A program made the translations under genes and the position numbers. Under the pieces are notes generated by a model. It did no database searches and was not told where the DNA came from. It worked only from the letters and a program-made list of their open reading frames with translations. This document shows positions 30,975 to 48,612 of a DNA stretch of 64,000 nt, piece by piece. The stretch's first letter is position 1. Every line of letters begins with the position of its first letter. Source of the stretch: Anaerolineae bacterium (lineage in GTDB: Bacteria > Chloroflexota > Anaerolineae > JAADDB01); NCBI GenBank assembly GCA_015490995.1, contig WFWT01000138.1:1-64000 (forward strand), read 5' to 3'.

Positions 30975-31234
30975 GTGTTCACAAAGCTTGTTGAGCGACG
31001 GTGTGCGAATGGTGTTCGCCAGAGAGCTTGAGTTCGTACTTTCGTGATTGTGGCGGCACAATTACTACGCGAATCACCCCCTGTTCCCATTCAATTGCCG
31101 TTGCAATCTATCACAGCGCCTACCTGCCTAACAGAAATGTCCGTCGAGGCTTTTGTCCCTCAAGCAGAACTATTCCTTCTTTTGAAGAGGACCTCCCCCC
31201 TTTATCGAGGACGTCCGGGGATACGCCGTCAAAT

Positions 31235-31263
31235 TTGACAGTACTCCTTGAATGTGGTACTAT
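31235..31263 (+). promoter_or_regulatory. Promoter of gntR
   Basis: TTGACA (31235-31240) - 17 bp - TACTAT (31258-31263); palindrome GTCAAATTTGAC at 31228-31239 overlaps the -35. Confidence 0.7.
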
Positions 31264-31272
31264 CTGGTCCAC

Positions 31273-31288
31273 AGTGGTCTATACCAAT
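31273..31288 (+). promoter_or_regulatory. Candidate GntR/DasR-NagR-type operator
   Basis: AGTGGTCTATACCAAT, close to the established dre-type consensus TGGTCTAGACCA, between promoter and gntR start. Confidence 0.6.
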
Positions 31289-31301
31289 ATGGAGCGGTTT
31301 T

Positions 31302-32111
31302 ATGTATCTCCCCCCTATCGATAAAAACAGCGCCGAACCTCTCTACTTGCAAATACGGCACGCCATCCTTCAGGCTATTCAGGATGGCGAACTTCCCCCC
31401 CATCAGCGTGTGCCTTCCGAGCGTGAGCTCAGTGAGCTCATGGGAGTTAGTCGGATGACCGTACGGCAAGCGCTGCAGGCACTGATCAATGACGGTTATC
31501 TCTACACCGTACCTGGCAAGGGTACGTTCGTCGCCTGTGGTCCTAAGATCGAGCAGAACTTGCAACGTCTCTCCGGGTTCACCGAGGAGGTGCGAAAACA
31601 GGGGTTCATGCCGGGATCCCGAGTGCTTTCGGTAGAACAGATCACGGCTGGTGAAGAAGAAGCCCACGCGTTGCAGGTGAGCCCTGGCACGTTGTTGCTG
31701 TGTATCACTCGACAGCGCCTCGTGGACAACGTGCCGGTTGCCTTAGAGAGTGCTTATCTGGTCTACGCCCGGTTCCCCGGTTTGGACAGGATAGATTTCA
31801 ACCGACATTCTCTATACGAAGTGTTGCAAACCCGCTACGGGATTCGCCTGGTGCACGCCCGTCAATGTATCGAAGCTCAAGAGGCTAACGACGATGTCGC
31901 CCGTCTTCTGGGCATTGCCCCCCACCAACCCGTTCTAGCTATGGAGCGCACTACTTACGCGGATGATGAACAACCGGTGGAGTATGTGCGCTCTTATTAC
32001 CGAGCTGACCGCTTTCGTTTAAAGGTTGAACTCCACGTTCAAGGGCCATCCCCTAAGAGTGAAATCGCCAACGTGTACCGACCGTACGACGTTCCGGAGG
32101 TGGACGCGTAA
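31302..32111 (+). CDS. GntR family (HutC/NagR-type, UTRA) transcriptional regulator
   Basis: PLYLQIRHAILQAIQDGELPPHQRVPSERELSELMGVSRMTVRQALQALINDGYLYTVPGKGTFV. Confidence 0.93.
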   Translation: MYLPPIDKNSAEPLYLQIRHAILQAIQDGELPPHQRVPSERELSELMGVSRMTVRQALQALINDGYLYTVPGKGTFVACGPKIEQNLQRLSGFTEEVRKQGFMPGSRVLSVEQITAGEEEAHALQVSPGTLLLCITRQRLVDNVPVALESAYLVYARFPGLDRIDFNRHSLYEVLQTRYGIRLVHARQCIEAQEANDDVARLLGIAPHQPVLAMERTTYADDEQPVEYVRSYYRADRFRLKVELHVQGPSPKSEIANVYRPYDVPEVDA

Positions 32112-32190
32112 GTAAACCACCACCTATAACACCGGCTCGGGAAGGTCCAGCCTTAAACTATACTATGAGGATGTCTTTATTCGTCCGTTT

Positions 32191-32207
32191 GTTTACATGT
32201 TGTAAAC
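32191..32207 (+). promoter_or_regulatory. Perfect inverted repeat upstream of namZ; possible operator
   Basis: GTTTACA-TGT-TGTAAAC. Confidence 0.5.
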
Positions 32208-32230
32208 TACCCTAAGGAGCAAAACCTGTC

Positions 32231-33406
32231 ATGTCGGCACAGGGGGCCAAGGTTCGCTCCGGCCTGGATGTAATTGTCCGTTCAATTCCGCCGTCCTGGC
32301 GGAAGGGACGTGTGGGTCTAGTAAGCAACACAGCCGCGACCACCGCGGACCTGGTGGACGCGGCCCGTGCTTTGAAGGAGGCAGGAGCCAATGTGGTGGC
32401 CCTCTTTGCACCGGAACACGGTTACCGGGTGGCACAGGCCGCCGGAGAGCCGGTGGGGCCGACCTACGAGCCACGCACAGGCCTGCCTGTGTACAGTTTG
32501 TACAACGGTGACTTTGCCCCTCCCTCGGGAGTATTGAACACCCTAACGCATCTAGTAGTGGACTTGCCAGATGTGGGGGCGCGCTTTTATACCTACATGA
32601 GTACGCTCATTCACACTCTTAGAAGCGCTGCAGCTGCCGGGATACCGGTCACCGTGCTGGACCGACCCAACCCCCTCACCGGCGTGCACGTGGAGGGCCC
32701 CGTACTCCGACCCGCCTTTCGCTCTTTTGTGGGCATGTTGCCGGTGCCGATACGCCACGGGCTTACCCTTGGCGAACTCGCGCGTCTGGCCAACAGCACG
32801 GTGACCGATCTCAACGGAGAGGTCGAGGTTATTCCGGCCCAGGGGTGGCGTCGACACATGTGGTTTGACGCTACAGGCCGAATATGGGTCCCTCCCTCGC
32901 CCAACATGCCACACTTTGACACCGCCTTGGTGTATCCTGGTACCTGCTTGTTCGAAGGAACTACCTTGTCCGAAGGTCGAGGTACCCCTACCCCCTTTCA
33001 GGTTATCGGCGCGCCCTGGATGGACGGCGATACCTGGGAAGAACGGCTCAACCGTTTAACCTTGCCCGGCGTACGCTTTCGCTCCGTCACCTTCATACCA
33101 TGTGCTGGCAAATACGCGCACCAGACTTGTTACGGCGTTCAGGTCCATGTCACCGATCGGGACGTTTTCCAACCGGTACGCACGGCCATTGCTATGCTGG
33201 TCACGGCTCGTGACATTGCAGGTGAACGTGTGGCTTTTGTCCGGGATACCGTCACAACATATGTGTTTGACCACCTGGTCGGCACGGATCAAGTGCGCCA
33301 AGGGATTGAAGCAGGTCATTCGTGGGAAACAATTGTCTCCTCCTGGCAAGAGGAAGAGGCCGCGTTCCGACGCAAAGCAGAGGTGTATCACCTTTATCCG
33401 GAGTAA
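32231..33406 (+). CDS. namZ: DUF1343 exo-beta-N-acetylmuramidase NamZ-like
   Basis: RVGLVSNTAATTADLVDAARAL...FAPEHGYR; VDLPDVGARFYTYMSTLIHTLRSAAAAGIPVTVLDRPNPL; FEGTTLSEGRGTPTPFQVIGAPWMD. Confidence 0.93.
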   Translation: MSAQGAKVRSGLDVIVRSIPPSWRKGRVGLVSNTAATTADLVDAARALKEAGANVVALFAPEHGYRVAQAAGEPVGPTYEPRTGLPVYSLYNGDFAPPSGVLNTLTHLVVDLPDVGARFYTYMSTLIHTLRSAAAAGIPVTVLDRPNPLTGVHVEGPVLRPAFRSFVGMLPVPIRHGLTLGELARLANSTVTDLNGEVEVIPAQGWRRHMWFDATGRIWVPPSPNMPHFDTALVYPGTCLFEGTTLSEGRGTPTPFQVIGAPWMDGDTWEERLNRLTLPGVRFRSVTFIPCAGKYAHQTCYGVQVHVTDRDVFQPVRTAIAMLVTARDIAGERVAFVRDTVTTYVFDHLVGTDQVRQGIEAGHSWETIVSSWQEEEAAFRRKAEVYHLYPE

Positions 33407-33412
33407 TCGATA

Positions 33413-35284
33413 ATGGCCGGATATGCTATTGGTGTGGATGGGGGTGGCACTAAAACCGAAGCAGTGGTGATGGACTGGGAAGGACGAGTTCGGGCACGGG
33501 CTCGTGGCCCCAGTTGTAACCCTTATCACGTGGGGTGGGATACGGCTACCCACAGGGTGGCCGCCGTAGTGGACGAGGTGCTCCAAAAGGCACACCTCAC
33601 CATAACGGACGTCATCACCGCTACCCTGGCATTGGCAGGTGTGCATCGAGATCCCGAACGTGAGGCATGGCGTCGCTGGGCTCGACGGCAATGGCCCACC
33701 ATTGCCCTTCGGGTGGAAAACGACGCATTGGCAGCATTAGTGGGCGGGGCAGGCTCACCTTACGGCATCGTCATCGTGGCTGGCACCGGCATGATAGCGT
33801 ATGGGGTAAACGCAGCAGGGCATCACGCGCGAGCTGGGGGGTGGGGATACAGGCTGGACCGGGGAAGTGGATACGCTCTGGGAGAGGCAGCTGTACGTGC
33901 GGTGTTGGCGGGAGCGGAGGGCATGGACCTGTGTACCCGCCTGCAACAGGTAGTCCTGAACGCTCTCGGACTTGACACGCCAGAGGCCCTTATCCCCTGG
34001 TTTCACCATCCGAACACCACGGTGGACACCATCGCGGCCCTGGCGCCCCACGTGGTACGCGCGGCAGAGGCAGGTGACCCGGTAGCTGCCGGCATCGTAG
34101 CCGAGGGCGCCGACGCCCTTGCGCAGGCTGCCACCCAGGTGGCCGAGAAGATCGGGTTGACCGCGGAACAATTCCCGCTCGTCCTCAGTGGTGGGCTCTT
34201 GACCCACTTGCCCTTTTACCGGGAAGTGGTCCTACAAGCACTGCACCTTCACCTGCCCACCGCACAGCCCACACTGCCCCAAGCCGATGCTGCTGTGGGT
34301 GCTGCCTGGCTGGCGTGGGACCATGTGGGACATACCTTAGCCAAGCGGCCCGTTGCACAACCCGACGACAGCCCTTGTTCTACCTGGAGTACCGAGGAGC
34401 CCAATGTGCTCTCGCGGGATTTGGACACTCGTTCCGCCTTTGAGATTGTGGGAATTATGCACGTAGAGGATTACCGTGCAGTAAGTGCGGTACGTCGTAC
34501 TTTACCTGCCATCGCGGCTGCGGTTGAGGCCATCACCTCGCGATTGGCGCGAGGAGGACGACTTATCTACGTAGGCGCAGGGACATCCGGGCGCCTGGGT
34601 GTGTTGGACGCGTCCGAATGTCCTCCCACGTTTAACACACCGCCGGACATGGTAGTCGGTCTCATGGCAGGAGGGGGGGATGCCTTTCAGCACGCCAACG
34701 AAGCGGCTGAAGACGACGAAGCCGCGGGGTATCAGGCGGCCATGGGTCTGGATCTGAACGCACAGGATGTGATGGTGGGCGTCAGCGCCAGTGGACGCAC
34801 ACCATACGTGATCGGCGCGATGAAAGCTGCCCGTCATCAGGGGGCGTTCACCATTGCCCTGGTATGCAATCGCGATACCCCCCTCAGCAGGTTAGCCGAC
34901 CACACGATTGCTCCCCTTGTGGGACCTGAAGTCATTGCCGGGTCCACGCGATTGAAGGCCGGCACAGCCCAAAAGCTGATACTCAACATGCTCAGCACGG
35001 CTACTATGGTGCGGCTTGGCAAAGTATATGACAACCTGATGGTGGATGTGCGTCCTGAAAACCGTAAACTCCAAAAAAGGGCCCGATACATTATTATGCG
35101 GGCCTGTCGTGTCGACGAAGAGACCGCGGCAACAGCCCTGCGCCGTAGTGGAGGAAACGTAAAGGTGGCACTGGTCAGTCTACTGACCGGCTGCTCTCCT
35201 GAAGAGGCCAGGCAACGGTTGAACATGTGTCATGGTCGGGTAAGGGATGCAGTACGTGCACAAGGAGGAGGGACCGCTGCATGA
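33413..35284 (+). CDS. Fusion: BadF/BadG-type amino-sugar kinase (MurK-like) + N-acetylmuramic acid 6-phosphate etherase (MurQ)
   Basis: N-term GVDGGGTKTEAVVMD...VAGTGMIAYG; C-term LIYVGAGTSGRLGVLDASECPPTF, GSTRLKAGTAQKLILNMLSTATMVRLGKVYDNLMVDV. Confidence 0.93.
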   Translation: MAGYAIGVDGGGTKTEAVVMDWEGRVRARARGPSCNPYHVGWDTATHRVAAVVDEVLQKAHLTITDVITATLALAGVHRDPEREAWRRWARRQWPTIALRVENDALAALVGGAGSPYGIVIVAGTGMIAYGVNAAGHHARAGGWGYRLDRGSGYALGEAAVRAVLAGAEGMDLCTRLQQVVLNALGLDTPEALIPWFHHPNTTVDTIAALAPHVVRAAEAGDPVAAGIVAEGADALAQAATQVAEKIGLTAEQFPLVLSGGLLTHLPFYREVVLQALHLHLPTAQPTLPQADAAVGAAWLAWDHVGHTLAKRPVAQPDDSPCSTWSTEEPNVLSRDLDTRSAFEIVGIMHVEDYRAVSAVRRTLPAIAAAVEAITSRLARGGRLIYVGAGTSGRLGVLDASECPPTFNTPPDMVVGLMAGGGDAFQHANEAAEDDEAAGYQAAMGLDLNAQDVMVGVSASGRTPYVIGAMKAARHQGAFTIALVCNRDTPLSRLADHTIAPLVGPEVIAGSTRLKAGTAQKLILNMLSTATMVRLGKVYDNLMVDVRPENRKLQKRARYIIMRACRVDEETAATALRRSGGNVKVALVSLLTGCSPEEARQRLNMCHGRVRDAVRAQGGGTAA

Positions 35285-36351
35285 GCACGGTAACGCTAGC
35301 TCGGGAAGGTCTTACCCGTCTCTCGCCGGGTGCTTGGTTACGCCGCTTGGCGCGTAACTACGTGTTACGCCGTTTTCTGGTAGCATTGGCCAAAATCTAC
35401 GTGGTAGTGACCCTCACCTTCTTTATCGTGCGTTTGATGCCCACCAATCCCATAGAAGCGTACATCAACGAACTGATTGATCAGTACGGTTTCACCTACC
35501 AAGAGGCGCGTGATCAGGCCGCTGCCCTCTTCGGCCTTGATTTGGATACCCCTCTGTGGCAGCAATACCTCCAATACATGGGACAATTGATTCGCGGGGA
35601 TTTGGGCACCTCTTACCGATCCAAAGGCACCCCGGTATCCGCCATGATCGCCAAATTCCTGCCCTGGACCCTCTTCAGTGTGGGGGTATCGCTTCTCATT
35701 AGCTTCACACTGGGTATCCTGCTCGGTATGGTGATGGCCTACCGCCGGGAGAGCCTGCTGGACCATGTCCTCTCCGCGTTGGCCTCCATACTGACCGCCA
35801 TTCCTAATTACCTGGTGGGGATGATGATCCTCGTGTTCCTGGGAGTGCAGTGGAAGGTTTTCCCCATTACCCAAATGCGGGGAGCCATGTCCCCCGGCAT
35901 GAAACCTGGGTTCACGTGGGAGTTCATAAAGGACATCTTCTACCATGCCACTCTTCCCATCATGACATACGTGCTTACCACCGTGGGCAGCTGGATGTTG
36001 GCAATGAAGAGCAGCACCATCAGCACCCTTGGGGAGGATTACGTGATGGTTGCCAAGGCACGGGGCCTGCCTGAACGGCGCATTGTCACAGCATATGTGG
36101 GTCGCAATGCCTCTTTGCCCCTGTTTACCCAACTGGCTATCAGCATCGGCTTTGTCGTGGGGGGCTCCGCGCTGATAGAGTTCATCTTCGTGTACCAAGG
36201 GATCGGACAGTTGCTCTTGAACAGCATTAACTACCGGGATTACCCTGTCATGCAAGGCGTCTTCCTGGTTATCACCGTTGCTGTGATTTTGGCGAATTTC
36301 TTAGCCGACTTCGTGTACAGCTGGCTGGATCCGCGCATTCGCATCCAGTGA
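35281..36351 (+). CDS. ABC transporter permease (OppB/DppB family)
   Basis: FIVRLMPTNPIEAYINELIDQYGFTYQEARDQAAALFGLDLDTPLWQQYLQYMGQLIRGDLGTSY; ATGA overlap with upstream gene. Confidence 0.92.
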   Translation: MSTVTLAREGLTRLSPGAWLRRLARNYVLRRFLVALAKIYVVVTLTFFIVRLMPTNPIEAYINELIDQYGFTYQEARDQAAALFGLDLDTPLWQQYLQYMGQLIRGDLGTSYRSKGTPVSAMIAKFLPWTLFSVGVSLLISFTLGILLGMVMAYRRESLLDHVLSALASILTAIPNYLVGMMILVFLGVQWKVFPITQMRGAMSPGMKPGFTWEFIKDIFYHATLPIMTYVLTTVGSWMLAMKSSTISTLGEDYVMVAKARGLPERRIVTAYVGRNASLPLFTQLAISIGFVVGGSALIEFIFVYQGIGQLLLNSINYRDYPVMQGVFLVITVAVILANFLADFVYSWLDPRIRIQ

Positions 36352-36364: not shown

Positions 36365-37231
36365 ATGGAGACGGTAAGCCTGAGCCTCAAGCGCACGTGG
36401 CGGCTTCTCACTTACAACAAAATGGGATTTCTGGGCCTTCTCGGGGTGCTCTTTTTCATCCTCATGTCCTTTGTTGGTCCATATGTGGTCCCGCTGGACA
36501 CGCAAACGAAGGTGGACAAGATTTATCAACCGCCCTCTATGGAATTTTGGCTGGGAACGGATTCCGAAGGTCGGGATATCTTCTCTCAAATTGTGCACGG
36601 CGGCAAGGACGTGCTCATGGTGGCCTTTCTGGCCGGGTTTATCTCCACGGCCATTGCCGTAATCCTGGGCTCATTGAGCGCTCTGGCCGGTGGGTGGGTG
36701 GACAATGCTATCATGGCACTGGCCGACATCGTGCTGACTATCCCACAATTCCCGCTCTTGGCCGTTTTGGCCGGGTTGGTGAAATTCAACAACATCACGC
36801 TACTGGCCGTCATTTTAGGCGTTCTCTCTTGGCCCTCTCTGACCCGGGCTATTCGTGCCCAAGTGCTTTCCCTCCGGGAACGGGAGTTTGTAGAAGCGGC
36901 ACGAGCGTTGGATTTGGGCACCCGACATATCATTCTGCGGGAGATCATGCCGAACATGATGAGCTACATCGCCATCAACCTTATCTTCGCCATGACATCT
37001 GCTATTTACGCTCAGGTGGGCCTAGTTTTCCTGGGGCTTGTTCCCTTCTCCGGACAAAATTGGGGAGTCATGCTCAGCCTAGCATGGACCCGTGGGGCTA
37101 TCTTCTACAAGGATAGTATTTGGTACATCATGTCGCCGGTAGCTGCTATTGCGCTCTTCCAGCTGGCATTGGTTTCCCTGTCCCGGCTCCTGGAGGAAAT
37201 CTTTAACCCACGCCTGCGCACCAGCGTGTAA
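36365..37231 (+). CDS. ABC transporter permease (OppC/DppC family)
   Basis: WLGTDSEGRDIFSQIVHGGKDVLMVAFLAGFIS; LREREFVEAARALDLGTRHIILREIMPNM. Confidence 0.92.
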   Translation: METVSLSLKRTWRLLTYNKMGFLGLLGVLFFILMSFVGPYVVPLDTQTKVDKIYQPPSMEFWLGTDSEGRDIFSQIVHGGKDVLMVAFLAGFISTAIAVILGSLSALAGGWVDNAIMALADIVLTIPQFPLLAVLAGLVKFNNITLLAVILGVLSWPSLTRAIRAQVLSLREREFVEAARALDLGTRHIILREIMPNMMSYIAINLIFAMTSAIYAQVGLVFLGLVPFSGQNWGVMLSLAWTRGAIFYKDSIWYIMSPVAAIALFQLALVSLSRLLEEIFNPRLRTSV

Positions 37232-37268: not shown

Positions 37269-38321
37269 ATGACGGAACAAAGATTGGACGGTCACCTAAA
37301 TGAGGAATACATCCTGCAAGTGGAAGACCTCTGGGTGAGCTATCAAGCGGAACGGGGCACGGTGAAGGCGGTGTGTGGGGTGTCCTTTAACCTGCGTGCC
37401 GGAGAAACGCTGGCTTTCATCGGTGAAAGCGGTTGTGGGAAAACTACTTTGGGGCTCACGTTTATCCGCCTGCTGCCGGCTACAGCCCGCGTAGAACGGG
37501 GCCGTATCTGGTATAGCCGGGGGACAGAAGCCGTCGATGTACTGGCCATGCACGAACAGGAGTTACGTCATTTCCGCTGGCGCGAATGTGCCATGATCTT
37601 CCAGGGCGCGCAGAACGCGTTTAATCCGGTCCTTCGCATCTGGGATCAGGTGCTGGACACCGCGCGGGCCCACGGGGAGACAGACAAAAAGAAAATCCGC
37701 CAGCGGATGGAGGAATTGTTTCAACTGGTACAACTGGAACCGCGACGTGTCCTTCGAGCTTACCCGCACCAGCTGAGCGGTGGCATGCGACAGCGTGTGC
37801 TTATTGCCTTAGGCCTGCTTTTGAACCCTTCTCTAGTCATCCTGGATGAACCCACCACCGCTTTGGACATTCTCACTCAACGGTCGGTGATTGATGTGCT
37901 GCGAGGGCTGAAAGAACGGTTGCAATTTTCGTTAATTCTGATCTCGCACGACCTCTCGCTGGCCGCGGAGCTCGCGGACCGGGTCGCGACCATGTACGCG
38001 GGGAAGATCGTCGAACTGGCCAGTGTGTGGGATATCTATTATCGGCCGCACCATCCCTACACTGTAGGGTTGATACGCGCGGTGCCTACGCTGTCTGGCG
38101 ACCGGGGACGTCTGATTTCCATTCCTGGTTCACCGCCTGACCTCATTAACCCACCCACGGGTTGTCCTTTTCACCCGCGTTGTCCTTACACCACCGAACG
38201 ATGTCAAGAGGAAGAGCCCCCCCTCCAGGCTGTTAGCCCCACCCATCACGTCGCCTGCTGGCATTGGGAGAAGGTAATTGCCGAAGGAGGGGAGCGGATG
38301 CTGACAAAGGCGGAGGCGTAA
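37269..38321 (+). CDS. ABC transporter ATP-binding protein (OppD/DppD)
   Basis: [63 protein letters not shown]. Confidence 0.93.
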
Positions 38322-38327
38322 TTGGCC

Positions 38328-39326
38328 ATGAGCACACAGCCCAATGGTTTGCTTGAACTCCACCGGATAGAACGGACGTTCAAAGTCGGACGTAATCTTA
38401 TCCGCGTGTTGGACGATGTGTCCTTCTCGGTGCAGGCAGGGGAGGTATTATGTCTTGTCGGTGAGAGTGGCTGTGGCAAAACCACTACCGGAAAGATCGC
38501 CGCGGGGTTGTTACCACCGACTCAGGGGGAAGTCCGGTACAAGGGCCAGAACGTGTGGGCCATGCCTAAAGCGGCGTTTCGGGAGTATCGTCGAGCAGTG
38601 CAAATTATCCATCAAGACCCATACGCTTCTTTAAACCCCACACAGCGGGTGGTGAACATTCTTACGGCTCCCTTGCTCCGACACAAACTGGTTCGTAATC
38701 GGCGAGAAGCAGTGGAGAAAGCGTTGGAGCTGTTACAAGTGGTTGACCTGACCCCGCCGGAGGACTTCCTGAACAAGTATCCCCACCAGCTGAGCGGTGG
38801 CCAACGGCAGCGTGTCTCGGTGGCCCGCGCGTTGACGGTACAACCCCAATTTCTGGTCGCGGATGAAGCTGTCTCGATGCTGGACGTGTCTATCCGGGTC
38901 AGTTTGCTCCAAATGCTGGAACGCCTTCGCGAGGAAATGCATGTCGCTTATCTGTTCATCACCCACGACCTAGCCGTGGCCAAATACTTCGCCTGGGATG
39001 GCCGCATCGCCGTGATGTACTTAGGGCGTATTGTGGAGATTGGCCCCACACCACAGATTATTCACCGTCCCCGACATCCTTACACACAGGCGCTCCTTTC
39101 CGCGTTGCCGGAGGCAGATCCGAAGGCCACACGGACCAAGGAGCGCATTCAACTTCGAAGCCTGGACGTGCCCAGTTTGCTCAACATTCCGCCTGGATGC
39201 CCATTTCACCCGCGATGTCCGCTTTTCCAACCTGGCCTTTGTGACACACGGATCCCCAGCCTCGCACCGGTGGATGGGGGTGTGAAAGTGGCATGTCATG
39301 TGGTTACAGAAGGAGCGGCCCAGTGA
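38328..39326 (+). CDS. ABC transporter ATP-binding protein (OppF/DppF)
   Basis: [68 protein letters not shown]. Confidence 0.93.
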   Translation: MSTQPNGLLELHRIERTFKVGRNLIRVLDDVSFSVQAGEVLCLVGESGCGKTTTGKIAAGLLPPTQGEVRYKGQNVWAMPKAAFREYRRAVQIIHQDPYASLNPTQRVVNILTAPLLRHKLVRNRREAVEKALELLQVVDLTPPEDFLNKYPHQLSGGQRQRVSVARALTVQPQFLVADEAVSMLDVSIRVSLLQMLERLREEMHVAYLFITHDLAVAKYFAWDGRIAVMYLGRIVEIGPTPQIIHRPRHPYTQALLSALPEADPKATRTKERIQLRSLDVPSLLNIPPGCPFHPRCPLFQPGLCDTRIPSLAPVDGGVKVACHVVTEGAAQ

Positions 39327-39502
39327 GTCCGGAAATCGGCAAAGCAGCCACCCGCATAGCAATGTTTCTCATCGTGGGGGCTTTGCTCGCCCTCTGGTGG
39401 GCTCCCCGCGATAGTGCTGAGTTTGTGGTTTCCGTCTTGGTCATCCTTATCGGTCTTATCCTGCTGGGGCTGGTTGCCCTTGTTGCCCGATGGGCACGCT
39501 AA
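39323..39502 (+). CDS. Small hypothetical membrane protein (59 aa, GTG start)
   Basis: GTGA overlap with the upstream gene; two predicted TM segments. Confidence 0.6.
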   Translation: MSPEIGKAATRIAMFLIVGALLALWWAPRDSAEFVVSVLVILIGLILLGLVALVARWAR

Positions 39503-39656: not shown

Positions 39657-41504
39657 ATGAAGCGGTGGTATCTGGTCCTGGTGTTGGTAGCAGTGGTGAG
39701 TTTGGTGGTTGTCGCGTGTGCGCCGCAGGCTCAGCCCACGCCAGCGCCTGCGGAAAAACCCGCCGAAAAGCCTACCGAAGCCCCTGCCAAACCCACCGAA
39801 GCCCCTGAACCCACACCCACAGAGGCCCCTAAACCCATGGCGGGCGGTGAATTCCACGGCGCATGGCCGTACAAAGTGCCTCCAGAGGGTCATTACAACA
39901 CCTACGTGCCCAACTCCATCAACCTGGGCATTTACTGGGACGTGATGGAAATGCCGGGAGCTATGTACATCTGGTCAAGGGCAGAGTGGTTCCCGCTGAT
40001 GTACACCGAATGGGAATTCGTCCCCGAAGAAGATCTCTTCGTGGTCAAACTTCGCCAAGGGGCGAAGTGGTCGGACGGGACAGAATTCACCGCGGAAGAC
40101 GTGGTAGCTACCTTCAATGTGGGCCGCCTTTTCAAGTGGACCGTGTTCAAGTACGTGGATGAGATCAAGGCAGTTGACAAGTACACTGTGCAATTCCGCA
40201 TGAAGGTCCCGTCCACGGTGGTGGAGCGCTACGTGGTCCGTGAACGCATCCGGGCTGCATCCACCTACGGCGAGTTTGCCAAGAGGGTAGAAGAGCTCCT
40301 GGCTGCTGGGAAGGGGCCCGATTCGGATGAATGGAAGGCTCTTCAAAAGGAAGTAACCGACTTCCGGCCGGAGAAGATGGTGGTCACCGGACCGTACATG
40401 ATCGATCCCGACTCCATCACTGAAGCCCAGCTCACCCTGGTGAAGAACCCGAACTCTTGGCTGGCAGACCAGGTGAAGTTCGACAAGCTGGTCATCTATA
40501 ACGGGGAGACCCCGACGGTCACGCCGTTGGTGCTGGCTGGGGACATCGATTACGCAACCCATGGCTTTCCGCCGGCTACAGAGAAACAGTTTGTAGAGCA
40601 AGGCATCCGCATCGCCCGACCGCCCATTTACTCTGGTCCGGCCATCTACTTCAATCACGACATTTACCCCTTAAATCGCGCGGAATTTCGTCAGGCGGTA
40701 GCGTACGCTATCAACCGTGACGAGAACGCCACGGTGTCCCTGGGTGATTCTGCCAAGGCCGTAAAATACATGGTGGGCTTCAGCGACACCCTGGTGCCGC
40801 TCTGGCTCACTCAGGACCAAATCGGCCAACTGGACACCTACCCCTACGACCCGCAGAAGGCCGAAGAAATTCTCATGGGCATTGGCTTCAAGCGGGATTC
40901 GGATGGGGTCTGGATGGATGATAAAGGCAACCGTCTGGAATTCGAATTGACCTTCCCGGCCGAATACGCGGACTGGTCCGCGGCAGGCCAAAACGCGGCC
41001 GAACAGTTGACCAAGTTCGGCATCAAGATCACCCCACGCGGCGTGCAGTTCCAGCAGCATCCCACTGAAGTCCGTCAGGGTAAGTTCCAGATGGCCATTC
41101 GTCATTGGGGTTCCAGCACTAACCCGCACCCCCACTTCGCCTACCAGGGCGTGCTCTTCCTTTACAACTACGTGGGCAGCCCTGAAGGCAAGGGCATGAA
41201 CTTCCCAATGCAGCAGACCGTCGACGGCAAGGAGGTCGATCTGGAACAGCTGATTGTCCAGTCGGCCGAGGGCCTGGACGAGGAAGCCCAAAAGGCGATG
41301 GTGGCTGAAGTTGCTGCGGTCTTCAACAAGCTCCTGCCGGTGGTTCCCTTGTGGGAGCGCTTCGGCAATAACCCGGTGAACGAAACCGCTCGCGTGACCG
41401 GCTGGCCAAGCGACGATCACTACCTGCTCCAAAATTCGGCCTACGGAGACAACTGGGTGATCATCGCTCTCCTCCAGGGCATGTTAAAGCCCATCGGGCA
41501 GTAA
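39657..41504 (+). CDS. ABC transporter substrate-binding lipoprotein, SBP family 5
   Basis: Lipobox VVACAPQ; PTP/AEKP linker; LRQGAKWSDGTEFTAEDVVATFN. Confidence 0.93.
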   Translation: MKRWYLVLVLVAVVSLVVVACAPQAQPTPAPAEKPAEKPTEAPAKPTEAPEPTPTEAPKPMAGGEFHGAWPYKVPPEGHYNTYVPNSINLGIYWDVMEMPGAMYIWSRAEWFPLMYTEWEFVPEEDLFVVKLRQGAKWSDGTEFTAEDVVATFNVGRLFKWTVFKYVDEIKAVDKYTVQFRMKVPSTVVERYVVRERIRAASTYGEFAKRVEELLAAGKGPDSDEWKALQKEVTDFRPEKMVVTGPYMIDPDSITEAQLTLVKNPNSWLADQVKFDKLVIYNGETPTVTPLVLAGDIDYATHGFPPATEKQFVEQGIRIARPPIYSGPAIYFNHDIYPLNRAEFRQAVAYAINRDENATVSLGDSAKAVKYMVGFSDTLVPLWLTQDQIGQLDTYPYDPQKAEEILMGIGFKRDSDGVWMDDKGNRLEFELTFPAEYADWSAAGQNAAEQLTKFGIKITPRGVQFQQHPTEVRQGKFQMAIRHWGSSTNPHPHFAYQGVLFLYNYVGSPEGKGMNFPMQQTVDGKEVDLEQLIVQSAEGLDEEAQKAMVAEVAAVFNKLLPVVPLWERFGNNPVNETARVTGWPSDDHYLLQNSAYGDNWVIIALLQGMLKPIGQ

Positions 41505-41648: not shown

Positions 41649-43508
41649 ATGTCTCAACCGTTCATCCTGCTACCACAACCACAAGTTATAGAAACAAAGG
41701 AGGGCTTCTACTCCCTAATTGACAACTGTCTCCTTCTTCTGGATAGCCCATCTCCCCAGGCCCTTTGCTTCACCGCACAGCGGCTTCAGAGGGCCCTGAC
41801 CACTTATGCCTCCGTTACCTGGGAGATCGTTGCCGGTACGGCCGTACCCGCAGATCAGGTAGGTGCTACCTTGAGTGTTATTCCGGGCAGTGTACGTCAT
41901 CCCCAAGGATATGAGCTGTCCATTCATCCCTCAGGAGTTCATTTGGTAGCCGGTACACCGGCAGGCCTGTTCTACGGGGTAATGACACTTATCCAAATCA
42001 TCCAACAATGTGGCCACCAACTCCCTGCTTTGCGCATTCGGGACTGGCCCGACTTTCCCCATCGTGGGGTTATGTTGGACATCAGCCGGGACAAAGTGCC
42101 CACCATGGAGACCCTCTTTGCCCTGATTGACCTGTTAGCTTCGTGGAAGGTCAATCAGTTCCAACTGTACACCGAGCACACCTTTGCCTATCGTCATCAC
42201 CCTGACGTGTGGGCCCAGGCTTCTCCCCTCACAGGTGAGGAGATCCTGGCACTGGATGCCTATTGCCGGGAACGGTTTATCGACCTTGTGCCCAACCAGA
42301 ATTCCTTTGGGCACATGCGCCGCTGGCTTATTCACGACCGGTACCGGGATTTAGCGGAATGTCCACAAGGATGTGATACCTCTTGGGGCTATTTTGATGA
42401 ACCCTTTAGCCTGAACCCGCTAGATCCTCGCAGCCTGGACCTGCTACGGAGTTTGTACGATGAGCTGTTACCCCACTTTACCAGCCACTACTTCAACGTT
42501 GGTTGTGATGAAACCGTGGACCTCGGTCAGGGACGTAGCAAGGAGGTCGTGGAGAAGTACGGTGTCGGTCGCGTGTACCTGGATTTCTTGATGAAAATAT
42601 ACCGAGAAGTAAAGTCACGCGGGCGTACCATGATGTTTTGGGGGGACATTATTGTGCAGCACCCTAACCTAGTACCTGAACTGCCCCGAGATGTTATTGC
42701 CCTTGCATGGGGATATGAAGCCGACCATCCCTTTGATCGTCACGGTGCTCTGTTTGCGGCCTCCGGCGTACCCTTCTACGTCTGTCCAGGCACGTCCACG
42801 TGGAATAGCATCGCAGGCCGAACGGACAACGCGTTGGGTAACCTGCGTAACGCGGCGGAAAATGGCCTCAAACACGGTGCGCTAGGTTTTCTGAACACGG
42901 ATTGGGGGGATAACGGTCACTGGCAACCGCTGCCGGTCAGTTACCTGGGATACGCTTATGGGGCAGCCGTTTCCTGGGCCTATGAAGCTAACCGCGATCT
43001 AGACGTAGTGGCCGTTCTCAACCGGTACGCATTTCGAGATCGAGCGGAAGTAATGGGGCGCATCGCGTACGATCTGGGTAATGCATATCAGGTACCGGGC
43101 GTACAGAATTTCAACGGTTCTATTCTCTTCCGCATTCTCCAGTGGTCCCCCGGGGAGATCGCCCAACACCAAGGACTCACCGAAGAGGGCTTACACCGTA
43201 CCCTGAGATACATCGATGAGGTTATGTCTCATTTAGAACGGGCAAACATGGACCGTCAAGACGCCGATCTTGTCCGTCAAGAATTCGCGTGGGCGGCAGA
43301 TATGCTCCGCCACGCTGCCAAGCGGGGCCTCTGGGCCTTGAAAAAAGCGCGAGGAGCTGTGGATAGCACCTTGCAGGGTATGTTGGCCGAAGAGGCAAAA
43401 CGCCTGATGGCAGAATTTCACCACATCTGGCATGCGCGCAACCGGCCTGGCGGTTTCAAGGACAGCCTCGCCCGTATGGAACGAATGATGAAGGACTACC
43501 AAACGTAA
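41649..43508 (+). CDS. GH20 beta-N-acetylhexosaminidase, no obvious signal peptide
   Basis: LRIRDWPDFPHRGVMLDISRDKVPTMETLFALIDLLASWKVNQFQLYTEHTFAYRHHP; YFNVGCDETVDLG (DE pair); start reassigned to 41649. Confidence 0.9.
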   Translation: MSQPFILLPQPQVIETKEGFYSLIDNCLLLLDSPSPQALCFTAQRLQRALTTYASVTWEIVAGTAVPADQVGATLSVIPGSVRHPQGYELSIHPSGVHLVAGTPAGLFYGVMTLIQIIQQCGHQLPALRIRDWPDFPHRGVMLDISRDKVPTMETLFALIDLLASWKVNQFQLYTEHTFAYRHHPDVWAQASPLTGEEILALDAYCRERFIDLVPNQNSFGHMRRWLIHDRYRDLAECPQGCDTSWGYFDEPFSLNPLDPRSLDLLRSLYDELLPHFTSHYFNVGCDETVDLGQGRSKEVVEKYGVGRVYLDFLMKIYREVKSRGRTMMFWGDIIVQHPNLVPELPRDVIALAWGYEADHPFDRHGALFAASGVPFYVCPGTSTWNSIAGRTDNALGNLRNAAENGLKHGALGFLNTDWGDNGHWQPLPVSYLGYAYGAAVSWAYEANRDLDVVAVLNRYAFRDRAEVMGRIAYDLGNAYQVPGVQNFNGSILFRILQWSPGEIAQHQGLTEEGLHRTLRYIDEVMSHLERANMDRQDADLVRQEFAWAADMLRHAAKRGLWALKKARGAVDSTLQGMLAEEAKRLMAEFHHIWHARNRPGGFKDSLARMERMMKDYQT

Positions 43509-43580
43509 CAAGGGCTCGTGTAGCATCCTTGGGTTCTTAGCGTACGCCGTCATAGTGATAACAACAATGAGGAGAGTGCC

Positions 43581-44867
43581 ATGCCCAAATCACCAATTAC
43601 CGCTGTCATGGTGGGTGCCGGTCAGCGGGGTTATTACTCATACGGTCCTTACGCGCTGATCCACCCGGACGAACTCACCTTTGTTGCCGTGGCTGAACCG
43701 AACCCAGAACGGCGGGAACGTTTCGCTCGCGCTCATAACATCCCGCCGGAATATCAGTTTGCCTCATGGGAAGAACTGATGGCCAAAGGACAGATTGCCG
43801 ATGTGCTGTTCAACATGACCATGGACCAAGACCACTTTGCCTCTACAGTTGCTGCCCTAGAAACCGGCTACGACGTGCTGTTGGAGAAGCCGATGGCCCA
43901 CACGCTAGAATACAACGTGGCCCTAGTGCGTACGGCGGAACGAACGGGGCGTCTGCTGCAGGTATGTCATGTGCTACGCTACACACCCTTTTTCTCTACC
44001 TTGCACGACATCCTCACTTCTGGCCGGTTAGGGGATATTATCACTGTGGAACACCGGGAGAACGTGGTGTACTGGCATATGGCCCACAGTTTTGTGCGAG
44101 GCAACTGGCGCAACGTGGCCACCTCTGCGCCGATGATCTTGGCCAAGTGCTGCCATGACTTTGACATCCTTTATTGGAACTTGGGGGAACGTATAAAACG
44201 CCTGCATTCCTTCGGTTCTCTCAGGCACTTCCGGCCAGAAAACGCGCCGCCTGGTGCTCCTCAACGGTGTACCGACGGGTGTCCAGTAGCCGAGGAATGC
44301 CCTTTTGACGCTCGGCGCATTTACCTGAACATGAACAATACCGGCTGGCCTGTGACCGTCATCACCGACGATCTTTCCTTTGAAGGTCGCTTACGTGCCT
44401 TACAGGAAGGCCCTTACGGCCGTTGTGTGTACTATTGCGACAACGATGTGGTAGATCACCAAGTTGTGAACATGGAGACCGAAAGCGGCACGTCCGTGGT
44501 CCTTGTCATGCACGGTCATTCTCACGAAGAAGCACGTACTATGCGCTACGACGGCACGCGGGCCACGTTACGCGGAAAGTTTAATTATGCAAGCGGGTGG
44601 ATAGAAATATGGGACCATGTCACTAACCGGCGCATTGATGTGGACATTCCTCCCGCGGAAGGGGGACACGGCGGGGGCGACTTCGGGGTAGTCCGGGCCT
44701 TCTTGAAAGCCGTACGTGGGGAAACAGATGCCCTGACACCGGCCCGTGAAGCGCTGGAGAGTCACCTGCTCGCCTTCGCCGCGGAGGAAGCTCGTCTTAC
44801 CGGAACCGTCATCAACATGGACGAATTTCGCGAACGGGCAGAGAGGAGCGTGACACACCATGCATAG
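43581..44867 (+). CDS. Gfo/Idh/MocA family oxidoreductase with Cys cluster
   Basis: VMVGAGQRGYYSYGPYAL; DVLLEKPMAHTLEYNVALV; CTDGCPVAEECPF. Confidence 0.9.
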   Translation: MPKSPITAVMVGAGQRGYYSYGPYALIHPDELTFVAVAEPNPERRERFARAHNIPPEYQFASWEELMAKGQIADVLFNMTMDQDHFASTVAALETGYDVLLEKPMAHTLEYNVALVRTAERTGRLLQVCHVLRYTPFFSTLHDILTSGRLGDIITVEHRENVVYWHMAHSFVRGNWRNVATSAPMILAKCCHDFDILYWNLGERIKRLHSFGSLRHFRPENAPPGAPQRCTDGCPVAEECPFDARRIYLNMNNTGWPVTVITDDLSFEGRLRALQEGPYGRCVYYCDNDVVDHQVVNMETESGTSVVLVMHGHSHEEARTMRYDGTRATLRGKFNYASGWIEIWDHVTNRRIDVDIPPAEGGHGGGDFGVVRAFLKAVRGETDALTPAREALESHLLAFAAEEARLTGTVINMDEFRERAERSVTHHA

Positions 44868-44997
44868 CACCCACTTTATACCCCGGCTTCTAAAACAGAT
44901 GTTTTACCTCTTTGCCGAGGCGGATAACGAGGGCAAAGCACAGGAACGTATTGTCTGGGCTCGTTATTTTATCGTCCTGGAGGCACTCCCATCGTGA
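44860..44997 (+). CDS. Small ORF, 45 aa, unlisted: MHSTHFIPRLLKQMFYLFAEADNEGKAQERIVWARYFIVLEALPS
   Basis: ATG overlaps upstream stop (ATGCATAG) and TGA overlaps downstream GTG (GTGA); fills the 126-bp gap completely. Confidence 0.6.
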   Translation: MHSTHFIPRLLKQMFYLFAEADNEGKAQERIVWARYFIVLEALPS

Positions 44998-46199
44998 GAT
45001 ATCAACACGAACATCCCGGCCTGGGCCACGCCCTTGATTCACCGGTGGCATCTCGGGCAGGGTTTTCTCCCTGGCAAGTAAATGAGCTTCTTCAAGCCGG
45101 GGTGGGCACCGTTTACACCGCTGCTGTGGTGCACGTTCGCCAGGGGGGACAAACGGTGTACGAGCAGGCGGCGGGTTACATACACCCGGAGGTCGTCCCC
45201 TTCCCGGCGACTTCAGAAACCCAATTTGATCTGGCTTCCCTTACCAAACTCTTCGTGGCCACGGCGTTCTTGCTTCAGGTAGCATCAGGGCACGTTACCC
45301 TAGAAACGCCGGTGCATACCATTCTGCCCGAATTCCGAGGACTGCGTCCGATTCAGCCCTATGAGGACCCCCTCCAACCGGGACGTTGGGTAACGGTCAG
45401 TGAGGAGAAAGGTCCCGTGAACGCAGACGAGGTGACATTCCGCCACGTGCTTACCCACACAAGCGGTTTGCCAGCCTGGCGACCGCTATACATGGCTCCA
45501 CCCCGGCACCGACGCATGCGCGTGCTCCACACTGCTTTTGCTTATCCGCCGGGACGACGGGTGGTCTACTCCGATTTGGGGTTCATGATTTTAGGCTGGG
45601 CCCTGGAAGCCATCATGGGGGCTTCTCTGTCTTCTGTGCTTGACACCCTTGTGTGTAAGCCTTTGGGACTGCAATCAGTACGCTTCCGAACAGCGGGCAA
45701 CTATCGGGGTATTACGCACATTGCGGCCACAGAGCGCTGCGCTTGGCGGCAACGTCGGGTGTGGGGTGAAGTGCACGACGAAAACGCTTGGGCTCTAGGA
45801 GGTGTAGCCGGTCACGCGGGGCTCTTTGCCACTGCACGTGACGTGGCCGCCTTTGGTCAGGCTTGGCTAGACGCCCTACGCGGGCGTGGCCCCTTCGCCA
45901 CCTTGGGCTCCCTCGCCCAGGAAGCTGTACGCCTTCACGCGGAAGACCATCACGTGCGTCGTGGGCTGGGATGGGCCCTCTGGTCTCCGGCCCCAGAGAG
46001 CCCCTCTCGTCCGTTCGGTCCTCGTGCGTTTGGTCACACCGGGTTCACCGGCACCTCCCTGTACGTGGACCCTGAACGGAATCTGGTTGTGGCCGCGTTG
46101 ACCAACCGTGTGTACTACGGCCGCATGAGCCAGCCCATTGCCCGGTGGCGCTACCAGTTGCACCACATCCTTTCCCAACATTCACTACCTGAGACCTAA
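44994..46199 (+). CDS. Serine hydrolase, beta-lactamase family (AmiE/YbbE-like)
   Basis: FDLASLTKLFVATAFLLQ (SxxK), HVLTHTSGLPAWRP, VAGHAGLFATARDVAAFGQ. Confidence 0.88.
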   Translation: MRYQHEHPGLGHALDSPVASRAGFSPWQVNELLQAGVGTVYTAAVVHVRQGGQTVYEQAAGYIHPEVVPFPATSETQFDLASLTKLFVATAFLLQVASGHVTLETPVHTILPEFRGLRPIQPYEDPLQPGRWVTVSEEKGPVNADEVTFRHVLTHTSGLPAWRPLYMAPPRHRRMRVLHTAFAYPPGRRVVYSDLGFMILGWALEAIMGASLSSVLDTLVCKPLGLQSVRFRTAGNYRGITHIAATERCAWRQRRVWGEVHDENAWALGGVAGHAGLFATARDVAAFGQAWLDALRGRGPFATLGSLAQEAVRLHAEDHHVRRGLGWALWSPAPESPSRPFGPRAFGHTGFTGTSLYVDPERNLVVAALTNRVYYGRMSQPIARWRYQLHHILSQHSLPET

Positions 46200-47342
46200 A
46201 TGTTACCGATGCTTGTTATTGGTGTCATCTCCGGCACGTCAGCGGATGGTACAGATGTTGCTGTTGTGGACCTCACGGGTGCACCGCCCCACCTCCGGTG
46301 GCGCCTTGTGCATGCGACCACGGTTCCCCATCCCCCGGACCTGCGCGCCGCTATTCTGGACGCGATGACCCCAGAGAAGGGGACGGTTGATCGGTTATGT
46401 GAATTAAACGTGTGGTTGGGTGAACAATTCGCCGAAGCGGTGCTTATGGCCCTCAGAGAGGCTGGCTTACAACCCCGTGATGTTGACTTGATCGGATCAC
46501 ACGGCCAGACCGTATGGCACCATCCTCATCCACCGTATCCTGGTACCCTGCAACTGGGCGAACCGGCCATCCTTGCGGAACGGACCGGGCTGCCGGTAAT
46601 TAGCAACTTTCGGGCCCGGGATATCGCAGCGGGGGGACAAGGCGCTCCCTTAGTTGCCTACGTAGATGTGCTCCTGCTTACTCATGATCGTCACGTTCGG
46701 GCAGCACAGAACATCGGCGGCATTGCTAACGTCACTTTTCTCCCACCGCGTGGGACACAATGGCATCCCTTTGCTTTTGACACCGGGCCAGGCAACGCAC
46801 TTATCGACGAAGCAGCTTATCGGGCCACTCATGGGAAATGGGCCTACGATCAGGAAGGAGAGCTTGCTCGCCTTGGTAGAGTGGACGAAGCGTTGCTGGC
46901 GACGTGGTTATCCCATCCTTTTTTCAGGCAACCTCCCCCGAAATCTACAGGACGCGAGGTATTTGGGCGTTCCTTTGTGGAACAGGCGTGGAGGCAAGGA
47001 AAAGCTAAAGGGCTTTCGCCTGCAGATATCGTTGCCACCTTAACCGCCCTTACAGCTCACAGCATCGCTCAGGCCTATCGTCAATTTTTACCTGTGTTCC
47101 CTGATGAGGTCATCATCAGCGGGGGCGGGGTACACAATCCTACGCTGATGGCGATGTTACGTGACTTCCTTGCCCCAGCGCACGTCCTCTCCTCTGACGA
47201 CTTAGGTATTCCCGCGGATGCCAAAGAGGCACTGGCCTTTGCTGTGCTCGCCTATGAAACATGGCATCAGCGGCCAGGTAATTTGCCATCCGCCACAGGT
47301 GCTAATCGAGCCGTTATTCTGGGGGACATCACGCCGGCATGA
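46200..47342 (+). CDS. anmK: Anhydro-N-acetylmuramic acid kinase
   Basis: VIGVISGTSADGTDVAVVDLTG; IGSHGQTVWHHP; NIGGIANVTFLPP; FDTGPGNALID. Confidence 0.95.
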   Translation: MLPMLVIGVISGTSADGTDVAVVDLTGAPPHLRWRLVHATTVPHPPDLRAAILDAMTPEKGTVDRLCELNVWLGEQFAEAVLMALREAGLQPRDVDLIGSHGQTVWHHPHPPYPGTLQLGEPAILAERTGLPVISNFRARDIAAGGQGAPLVAYVDVLLLTHDRHVRAAQNIGGIANVTFLPPRGTQWHPFAFDTGPGNALIDEAAYRATHGKWAYDQEGELARLGRVDEALLATWLSHPFFRQPPPKSTGREVFGRSFVEQAWRQGKAKGLSPADIVATLTALTAHSIAQAYRQFLPVFPDEVIISGGGVHNPTLMAMLRDFLAPAHVLSSDDLGIPADAKEALAFAVLAYETWHQRPGNLPSATGANRAVILGDITPA

Positions 47343-47430
47343 TATATTTACAGATGCCAAAAGGTGAAAAATGCCCTAAAACCCGAAGCGGCTATCCCGT
47401 CAATTTACTGCGTCGCCGAGGGAGTGAACG

Positions 47431-48612
47431 ATGGCACACTATTTGACGCACGCACGTATCTACACACCGTTTGTATGTATTGAACCGGGCACCCTTGTCA
47501 TCTCTGATGGTCGTATCGTGGCGGTCGATCATGTCACCGCGCTTCCTCCTCCTCGAAACGCTCAGGTGACCAACCTGGAGGGCTTTTGGATTACTCCCGG
47601 TCTGATCGATGTTCACATTCACGGCTTGTTGGGATACGATGTTATGGGAGAAGGGTTGGTAGAGGTATGTCGGTTATTGCCCCGGTATGGGGTTACGGCT
47701 TTTGCCCCTACTACGTTAACCCTTCCGTGGGAAGAGACCCTTATCCGTTTACGTCATATGGCCCGTCTGCTAGCAAGGTCTTCTCAAGGCGCACAACCGA
47801 TAGGCATTCACATCGAAGGTCCCCATCTCTCGCCCAAGCGCCCGGGCATGGCCAACCCACGCTGGATGCGCCCCTTAACGTTGGAGGATTGGCAGGCCAT
47901 GCAGCAGGCTGCTCAAGGTCACATTCGGCTTATCACTTTTGCCCCAGAAGAAGGGCATGGAGCTGTTCTGATTCCTAAGTTGCGGGCAGAAGGTGTGATT
48001 CCCGTTATCGGCCATTCAGATGCCCGTTTCGATCAAGTAGCAGATTGGGTCCAACATGGTCTGACCATGGCCACGCACACCTTCAACGCTATGCGTGGTC
48101 TCCACCACCGTGAACCAGGTGTTGTGGGCGCGGTCCTTCACTTTGAGGACATTGTGGCCCAGCTAATCGCGGATGGACATCACGTGCACCCGGTTGCCAT
48201 GAAGATCCTCTTACAAGCGAAAGGCCCAACAGGTGTAGCCCTTATTTCCGACGCGGCCCCGCTTGCCGGTATGCCTCCCGGTGAATACACTTGGGGAACA
48301 TACCGGGTCATTGTGGACGGCTCAACGGTGCGCTTGCCGGACGGAACCCTGGCCGGTGCTTACGCTCTGTTGGATACCGGCCTGCGCAACCTCATAAATC
48401 TGGTCGGTCTTTCCTTCCAGGAAGCGCTCATCACAGCAACGGTCACGCCTGCACGCGCGCTTGGAGTGCCCAAAGGGATTATTCGTCCTGGGTACGACGC
48501 GGACCTGGTAGTGTGGACGCCCGACTTGCACGTAGCCTTCACTTTTGTCCAGGGAAAAGTAGTGTATACTTCCCCTGCCCACGATACTGTCCTGGCTCCC
48601 AAATTACCGTGA
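47431..48612 (+). CDS. nagA: N-acetylglucosamine-6-phosphate deacetylase
   Basis: WITPGLIDVHIHGLLGYDVM; IGIHIEGPHLSPKRPGMAN; THTFNAMRGLHHREPGVVGA. Confidence 0.94.
   Translation: MAHYLTHARIYTPFVCIEPGTLVISDGRIVAVDHVTALPPPRNAQVTNLEGFWITPGLIDVHIHGLLGYDVMGEGLVEVCRLLPRYGVTAFAPTTLTLPWEETLIRLRHMARLLARSSQGAQPIGIHIEGPHLSPKRPGMANPRWMRPLTLEDWQAMQQAAQGHIRLITFAPEEGHGAVLIPKLRAEGVIPVIGHSDARFDQVADWVQHGLTMATHTFNAMRGLHHREPGVVGAVLHFEDIVAQLIADGHHVHPVAMKILLQAKGPTGVALISDAAPLAGMPPGEYTWGTYRVIVDGSTVRLPDGTLAGAYALLDTGLRNLINLVGLSFQEALITATVTPARALGVPKGIIRPGYDADLVVWTPDLHVAFTFVQGKVVYTSPAHDTVLAPKLP

Follow-up and report, generated by a model that had tools for sequence, protein, structure and literature searches.

A probable PTS-free operon for the import and cytoplasmic breakdown of peptidoglycan fragments in an Anaerolineae bacterium

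How could a bacterium salvage peptidoglycan fragments without a phosphotransferase system (PTS) to bring them in? The question is raised by a locus on the plus strand of contig WFWT01000138.1 (31235-49538) from an Anaerolineae bacterium of the Chloroflexota (assembly GCA_015490995.1, 3.04 Mb, 99% complete); the window analysed here comprises the first 64,000 nucleotides of that contig. The locus encodes a GntR-type regulator, the exo-muramidase NamZ, a kinase fused to the etherase MurQ, an OppBCDF ATP-binding cassette (ABC) importer with a family-5 substrate-binding protein (SBP), a glycoside hydrolase (GH) of family 20, an AmiE-like serine hydrolase, AnmK and NagA. In Bacillus subtilis, the murQ-murR-murP-amiE-nagZ-namZ locus recycles cell-wall sugars. 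To our knowledge, detailed accounts of peptidoglycan recycling are limited to a few Proteobacteria, Bacillota and Bacteroidota, and our literature search found no paper describing it for Chloroflexota.

We consider it likely that the locus is a PTS-free operon, controlled by N-acetylglucosamine-6-phosphate (GlcNAc-6-P), for the import and cytoplasmic breakdown of peptidoglycan fragments, with a substrate and an order of steps that we infer as follows. The SBP_5 lipoprotein would capture small β-1,4-linked oligosaccharides of GlcNAc and N-acetylmuramic acid (MurNAc), probably disaccharides with or without a stem peptide, and OppBCDF, aided by a two-helix membrane protein, would import them unphosphorylated. 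Once in the cytoplasm, they would lose GlcNAc from GlcNAc-MurNAc ends to GH20 and MurNAc from MurNAc-GlcNAc ends to NamZ, while the AmiE-like hydrolase would strip the peptide. The kinase half of the fusion would phosphorylate MurNAc, and probably GlcNAc too, and AnmK would handle anhydro-MurNAc. The fused MurQ would convert MurNAc-6-P to GlcNAc-6-P, which NagA would deacetylate and which would free the operator at the gntR promoter of its NagR-like GntR repressor.

Conservation of the gene set and absence of a PTS

Gene families were called by profile search with Pfam and NCBIfam, and the gene set from GntR to NagA that a first-pass annotation had proposed on one strand was recovered in full and in the order given there. 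The 59-aa membrane protein in that list is a genuine gene, conserved in relatives; a 45-aa open reading frame (ORF) also listed (44860-44997) is not conserved and is probably no gene.

Separate searches for the SBP, NamZ and the fusion protein across 298 genomes of the class showed that 46 encode both SBP and NamZ (Fisher test, 8e-20), 50 both SBP and MurQ (1e-17) and 74 both NamZ and MurQ (1e-41); the counts include related genomes, so that the P values are only indicative. From genome size, about one genome would be expected to have NamZ no more than 20 kb from the SBP; 20 of 62, from seven families, do so although many contigs are short. Of the 74 genomes with both NamZ and MurQ, 38 have the two no more than 15 kb apart. 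Loci of the same genus or family (L032, L033) keep the front half, GntR-NamZ-fusion-OppBCDF-SBP-GH20. Distant families keep the gene set in other orders (L142, L156, L167, L168, L171, L174, L175, L180), for example GntR-NagA-AnmK-MurQ-NamZ-OppBCDF-SBP-AmiE-kinase in L171 and SBP-OppBCDF-GntR-NamZ-AmiE-AnmK-kinase-MurQ in L168 and L175. Synteny, which the first-pass annotation had set as a test, is thus borne out: NamZ, MurQ, kinase, AnmK, AmiE-like protein and OppBCDF-SBP recur, rearranged, in several families, and nothing points more strongly to a shared function than this retention of the set despite its changing order. In a tree of 35 SBPs, the peptidoglycan-linked loci fall into several separate, well-supported groups, and families f23 and f38/f15 are unlinked.

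The locus contains no PTS gene, as had been noted from the window, and the observation extends to the whole genome at the level of enzyme I: PF05524 has no match in the assembly, with matches in 7 of 14 controls. The combination of MurP and a general PTS that marks the MurNAc pathway of the B. subtilis and E. coli type was not found. GH20 does stand where NagZ might be expected, and no NagZ (GH3) is recognisable in the genome. The sole GH3 is a large exported protein (G000:C38:66727, L162) whose motif KHFPGQGSADRRPDED has KHFPG without the following DSH of NagZ; the catalytic His-Asp motif of a NagZ-type GH3 hexosaminidase was not found, and the protein is perhaps a non-NagZ or an inactive hexosaminidase. 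Mur ligases are kept in the genome, which indicates that the organism synthesises its own wall.

Enzymes, regulator and importer

NamZ matches both domain profiles over its full length (NamZ_N, 234 bits against a cut-off of 26.9, E 1e-69; NamZ_C, 189 bits against 25, E 1e-55), aligns end to end with 4k05 and 4jja, and is predicted to release MurNAc from non-reducing ends. GH20 consists of domain 2 and the catalytic domain, with D287-E288 invariant in 10 sequences, and its model (predicted local distance difference test, pLDDT, 92) is closest to streptococcal GcnA/GH20C. The proposed AmiE/YbbE-like hydrolase belongs by profile to the S12 family (Beta-lactamase), with PBP4B/YfeW as best equivalog and 28% identity to E. 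coli YfeW. Its translation carries the S12 motifs SxxK, YxD/N and HTG as ASLTK, YSD and HTG, and we regard it as a putative MurNAc-L-Ala (peptide) amidase.

Based on a simple N-terminal hydrophobicity test applied to relatives, none of 23 NamZ proteins has a hydrophobic N-terminus and there is no convincing case among nine GH20 proteins; by the same test all 33 SBPs have one. The AmiE-like S12 proteins begin directly inside their domain. The earlier remark that NamZ and GH20 bear no obvious signal peptide therefore applies here and in relatives alike, and the signal peptides of a secreted NagZ-AmiE-NamZ set of the B. subtilis type are missing. Hydrolases of this kind fit import first and digestion afterwards.

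The suspected kinase-MurQ fusion is real, with a BcrAD_BadFG kinase and a MurQ etherase in one 623-aa ORF. The MurQ half scores 364 bits against a cut-off of 302 (TIGR00274), and E402 and E433, the two conserved acidic positions of MurQ, are invariant in 11 fusions. The kinase half has the BcrAD_BadFG fold, a DGGGTKT loop (DxGxT) and a catalytic D104, and its nearest solved relative is 8zo3, a MurNAc/GlcNAc kinase. The locus shows no further kinase for GlcNAc, and one enzyme would serve both sugars if it had dual specificity, which we consider probable. Such a fusion is no peculiarity of the present genome: at least 11 further genomes of the class encode one in a single ORF, as do Verrucomicrobiota-type loci (L056, L057, L059). 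Separate adjacent kinase and MurQ genes are common elsewhere, also in several class members, and several fusions first called from one high-scoring segment pair (e.g. L055) proved to be two genes once stop codons were checked. Locus L048 (2931 and 1911, minus strand) has a fusion in reverse order, MurQ then kinase, in one 669-aa ORF.

Among solved structures, the regulator is nearest to NagR/YvoA (E 1e-47) and DasR (E 6e-38). Aligned to NagR, it shows the motifs PSER, SRMTVRQ, ITRxRL and S-x-Y, and with them the two operator-reading arginines and the phosphate-binding motif named for NagR, which binds GlcNAc-6-P and glucosamine-6-phosphate (GlcN-6-P) (PMC4333415). These effectors are the products of MurQ and NagA, which would make for a simple induction loop, and by analogy GlcNAc-6-P (or GlcN-6-P) would be the effector here. 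A dre-type operator, TGGTCTATACCA, lies in the controlled promoter, 12 nt behind the -10 hexamer of the gntR promoter-like site. The pattern TGGTNTANACCA has only two matches in the genome, this operator and one that we rejected because it lies inside a coding ORF. NagR-type sites with 0-2 mismatches are found 36-73 nt upstream of the aligned gntR start in eleven related loci. Promoter and terminator scans were overall near chance level, and only the gntR promoter was used, given its position next to the operator.

The proposed peptide/oligosaccharide-type ABC transporter in place of a PTS was confirmed by profiles for OppBCDF and SBP_bac_5. By sequence, the SBP is closest to Thermotoga TM1223 and Vibrio chitin-oligosaccharide binders. 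Its model (pLDDT 90) is nearer in fold to sugar than to peptide binders: PDB ranks 1-17 are all sugar binders (mannobiose, chito-oligosaccharide, cellobiose), with nickel and peptide binders below them. This closeness to β-1,4-oligosaccharide binders makes a GlcNAc/MurNAc disaccharide, bare or bearing a peptide, the probable cargo in preference to plain peptides. As β-1,4-linked GlcNAc-MurNAc resembles chitobiose, the likeness suits muropeptides, but it suits chitin as well.

The small membrane protein has about 60 residues, two helices and an [ST]AEF[VI]-type motif, and follows oppF directly in 35 of 36 related loci. Of 301 genomes searched in the phylum, 21 have a match to its profile, and in each of the 20 loci inspected an OppF-like gene adjoins it; no named family was found for it in Pfam or NCBIfam. 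It is probably a subunit or assembly factor of the importer. A broader proposal is that Chloroflexota have their own class of ABC importer for GlcNAc-MurNAc (muropeptides), made of a family-5 SBP, OppBCDF and a dedicated, hitherto undescribed two-helix subunit of about 60 residues, and feeding a cytoplasmic NamZ/GH20/amidase/kinase-MurQ pathway under NagR-type control by GlcNAc-6-P; here we hold the balance to be even.

A paralogous OppBCDF-SBP-small-protein transporter in the same genome (G000:C58, L166; 30% SBP identity) adjoins a LacI-type regulator, a SIS (NagB-II/GlmS-like) protein and a GH130-like ORF (LacI and GH130 assigned by eye), and its cargo is perhaps mannosyl-GlcNAc glycans. In four other loci of the class (L034, L036, L038, L041), a different ABC importer, made of an SBP_1 protein and two permeases, stands with a GntR regulator, an AmiE-like protein, a kinase-MurQ fusion and the same operator type, so that PTS-free uptake follows at least two routes in the class.

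Weighing the reading against its alternatives

Several observations weigh against a peptidoglycan-fragment operon. GH20 is present at only part of the related loci, and no operator was found upstream of gntR in the same-genus L032. In family f23 the SBP block lies apart from the NamZ-AmiE-AnmK-MurQ locus, and in the same-family genome G081 the Gfo-to-NagA half is not behind GH20. A classical NagB was not found in the genome, the sole PF01182 match being rejected as one; it adjoins an OpcA-like ORF and is for that reason probably a 6-phosphogluconolactonase, and a SIS-type NagB-II/GlmS-like gene elsewhere in the genome scores below the cut-off. The kinase half has Asn103 at the position of Thr94 of Tannerella MurK, which stands before the catalytic Asp and bears on MurNAc acceptance, and Asn is said to disfavour MurNAc (PMC10465942). 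The MurNAc/GlcNAc kinase 8zo3 likewise carries Asn there, several relatives have Thr, and the AGGWG stretch has small residues as in 8zo3, where a bulky Glu or His (near MurK 133-135) would leave the lactyl ether no space; the residue evidence on MurNAc acceptance is thus mixed.

The importer adds two further points. With a modelled SBP that resembles sugar binders, a peptide-bearing cargo lacks direct support, and it is solely the cytoplasmic AmiE-like protein that suggests import of peptide-bearing muropeptides. Moreover, the nine genomes of genus g126 have the same OppBCDF-SBP block and neither MurQ nor NamZ. The transporter family is therefore not exclusive to peptidoglycan and can serve other sugars, and in g126 (L181, 10839-13025, and L161) it likely carries another cargo; a PhyH dioxygenase gene and, in L181, a Gfo/Idh gene adjoin it there. 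Based on g126, the paralogue and the likeness of the SBP, we read the family as oligosaccharide importers, of which the present branch probably serves peptidoglycan. The earlier proposal of muropeptide import followed by cytoplasmic digestion is supported: synteny, the co-occurrence of SBP and NamZ, hydrolases free of signal peptides and the NagR-type regulator and operator speak for it. It is qualified by the sugar-type SBP, by the occurrence of the transporter family without MurQ or NamZ, and by earlier examples of ABC muropeptide import and of kinase-MurQ pairing.

The alternative that survives best, possible though on balance unlikely, is a variant compatible with the rest of the proposed pathway, in which peptides are removed outside, only disaccharides are imported and the S12 protein acts as an esterase or some further kind of hydrolase and not as a muropeptide amidase. 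The SBP does look like a sugar binder, the locus holds no murein peptidase, epimerase or Mpl gene, and S12 proteins vary in activity. Yet this S12 protein has no signal peptide, it adjoins NamZ, AnmK, MurQ or the transporter in many families and is so placed in Alphaproteobacteria too, and its best equivalog, YfeW, belongs to the E. coli murQ-murP-yfeW operon.

More doubtful is an importer mainly for chito-oligosaccharides or other GlcNAc glycans (chitin, N-glycans) working with GH20, which the MurNAc genes would adjoin through a shared GlcNAc-6-P regulator and shared last steps. NagR/DasR-type regulators classically govern GlcNAc use (PMC4333415), the SBP fold is closest to chito-oligosaccharide and mannoside binders, and both the g126 block and the GH130-like neighbour of the paralogue would agree with such a cargo. 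However, MurNAc is a more fitting cargo than chitin for the blocks of families f19, f46 and f39, which stand with NamZ, AmiE-like protein, AnmK, kinase and MurQ and where GH20 was not detected, and SBP presence tracks NamZ and MurQ across the class. A plain oligopeptide transporter lying by chance inside an amino-sugar cluster would account for the Opp family name and the SBP_bac_5 and oligo_HPY domains, but it is hardly credible given a linkage conserved in rearranged orders over several families and an SBP nearer to sugar binders than to any peptide binder.

Known systems, significance and gene arrangement

Like that of B. subtilis, the present locus unites NamZ, MurQ, an AmiE-like S12 hydrolase and an exo-hexosaminidase. 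It differs in having an ABC importer and no MurP or PTS, cytoplasmic hydrolases, GH20 in place of the GH3 NagZ, a kinase fused to MurQ, a GntR/NagR-type and not an RpiR/MurR regulator, and AnmK and NagA included; B. subtilis NamZ and NagZ are secreted and act outside the cell (PMC13204101).

As in the murTKQ system of Tannerella forsythia (MurT transporter, MurK kinase and MurQ; PMC10465942), PTS-independent transport would lead to an ATP-dependent kinase and MurQ, but the Tannerella kinase and etherase are separate and its muramidases act in the periplasm. With the NagR/DasR regulon (PMC4333415), where the effector is GlcN-6-P or GlcNAc-6-P, the locus shares a GntR/HutC repressor and a dre-type palindrome; the operon controlled here is probably one for MurNAc/muropeptides, not nagP/nagAB or chitin genes, and the effector is putative. 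The Vibrio chitin-oligosaccharide SBP and Thermotoga TM1223/TM1226 share the family-5 fold for β-1,4-linked oligosaccharides, at about 20% identity, whereas the present SBP is linked to peptidoglycan genes. MurT of Tannerella, for its part, takes up free MurNAc and does not belong to the Opp-type ABC importers.

A further parallel, by description, is YejBEF-YepA of Agrobacterium tumefaciens, an established ABC muropeptide importer of Alphaproteobacteria (PMC9790009), in which a family-5 SBP, Opp-like permeases and an ATPase bring in wall fragments for cytoplasmic digestion. That system is alphaproteobacterial, with an SBP encoded apart and a broad peptide transporter core, whereas the present operon is a dedicated one that has two ATPase genes and encodes an additional small membrane protein and an oligosaccharide-type SBP. 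Other alphaproteobacterial loci (L055, L081, L085 and L127, from Devosia epidermidihirudinis) carry MurQ, SBP_5, OppB, OppC, Opp ATPases, an AmiE-like protein and AnmK in one run. The Devosia locus has a divergent RpiR regulator and a fused OppD-OppF, and in the alphaproteobacterial loci neither NamZ nor GH20 was detected. Their transporters are only 29-45% identical to the present one, which suggests an independent assembly, and they are a candidate for a dedicated wall-fragment importer besides YejBEF-YepA. Given these runs and YejBEF-YepA, the principle of ABC muropeptide uptake is not new; what is new is the combination, the phylum, cytoplasmic NamZ and GH20, NagR-type control and the small membrane protein.

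The locus offers a complete and testable recycling scheme for Chloroflexota, in which uptake depends on neither a PTS nor AmpG. It also yields ligand predictions for the "oligopeptide" binding proteins, a large family still unassigned, and points to the small membrane protein as a likely importer part. That the gene set is common to many distantly related class members suggests that this little-studied group has its own way of recycling or consuming cell walls. The fragments might come from the organism's own wall or from other bacteria, and, as an ecological suggestion, the scheme is relevant to the question of whether dead cell walls are part of the diet of Anaerolineae, which are common in sludge and sediments.

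The coordinates are collected in Table 1. The GntR start is better placed at 31302 by alignment to solved relatives, the OppB start at an ATG that overlaps the stop of the fusion gene (ATGA), and the GH20 start at an ATG set by comparison with relatives; oppF and the 59-aa gene overlap as well. Short gaps and several overlaps fit a single transcription unit, and the locus may thus be co-transcribed as one operon.

Table 1. Features of the locus, in window coordinates
Feature	Coordinates	Strand	Remarks
Promoter-like site TTGACA-17-TACTAT with extended TG	31235..31263	+	10/12 matches
NagR/DasR-type operator TGGTCTATACCA	31275..31286	+	just 3' of -10 hexamer; kept upstream of gntR in relatives
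GntR/HutC (UTRA) regulator, NagR/YvoA-like	31302..32111	+	GntR and UTRA domains; nearest solved relatives NagR/YvoA, DasR
NamZ exo-β-N-acetylmuramidase, no signal peptide	32231..33406	+	NamZ_N/NamZ_C
Kinase-MurQ fusion	33413..35284	+	MurNAc/GlcNAc kinase (probable), residues 1-305; MurNAc-6-P etherase MurQ, residues 324-616
OppB-type permease	35281..36351	+	BPD_transp_1; start corrected
OppC-type permease	36365..37231	+	BPD_transp_1
OppD-type ATPase	37269..38321	+	ABC_tran and oligo_HPY
OppF-type ATPase	38322..39326	+	ABC_tran and oligo_HPY
59-aa two-helix membrane protein, putative importer accessory subunit	39323..39502	+	conserved; no Pfam/NCBIfam family
SBP_5 lipoprotein, oligosaccharide-type substrate-binding protein	39657..41504	+	SBP_bac_5
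GH20 β-N-acetylhexosaminidase, cytoplasmic	41649..43508	+	catalytic Asp-Glu conserved
Gfo/Idh/MocA oxidoreductase	43581..44867	+	adjoins same transporter in other families
AmiE/YfeW-like S12 serine hydrolase, no signal peptide; putative MurNAc-peptide amidase	44994..46199	+	
AnmK, 1,6-anhydro-MurNAc kinase	46200..47342	+	498 bits, cut-off 387
NagA, GlcNAc-6-P deacetylase	47431..48612	+	288 bits, cut-off 226
Calcineurin-like phosphoesterase (metallophosphoesterase), possible last gene of unit	48669..49538	+	57 nt after NagA

Some further neighbours were seen in related loci. A nucleotidyltransferase-phosphohexomutase fusion adjoins the same transporter in L142 (6995-9187), L143 (6884-9064) and L155 (6124-8310) and might feed salvaged sugar phosphates into UDP-sugars. 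A galactokinase-like GHMP kinase lies near NamZ, the fusion or the transporter in L032, L042 and L143 (TIGR00131 above cut-off in L042). About 11 kb upstream of the locus, on the same strand of the window (17967-20134), a diadenylate cyclase (DAC domain) gene is followed by one for a YbbR protein, the usual gene pair for cyclic di-AMP.

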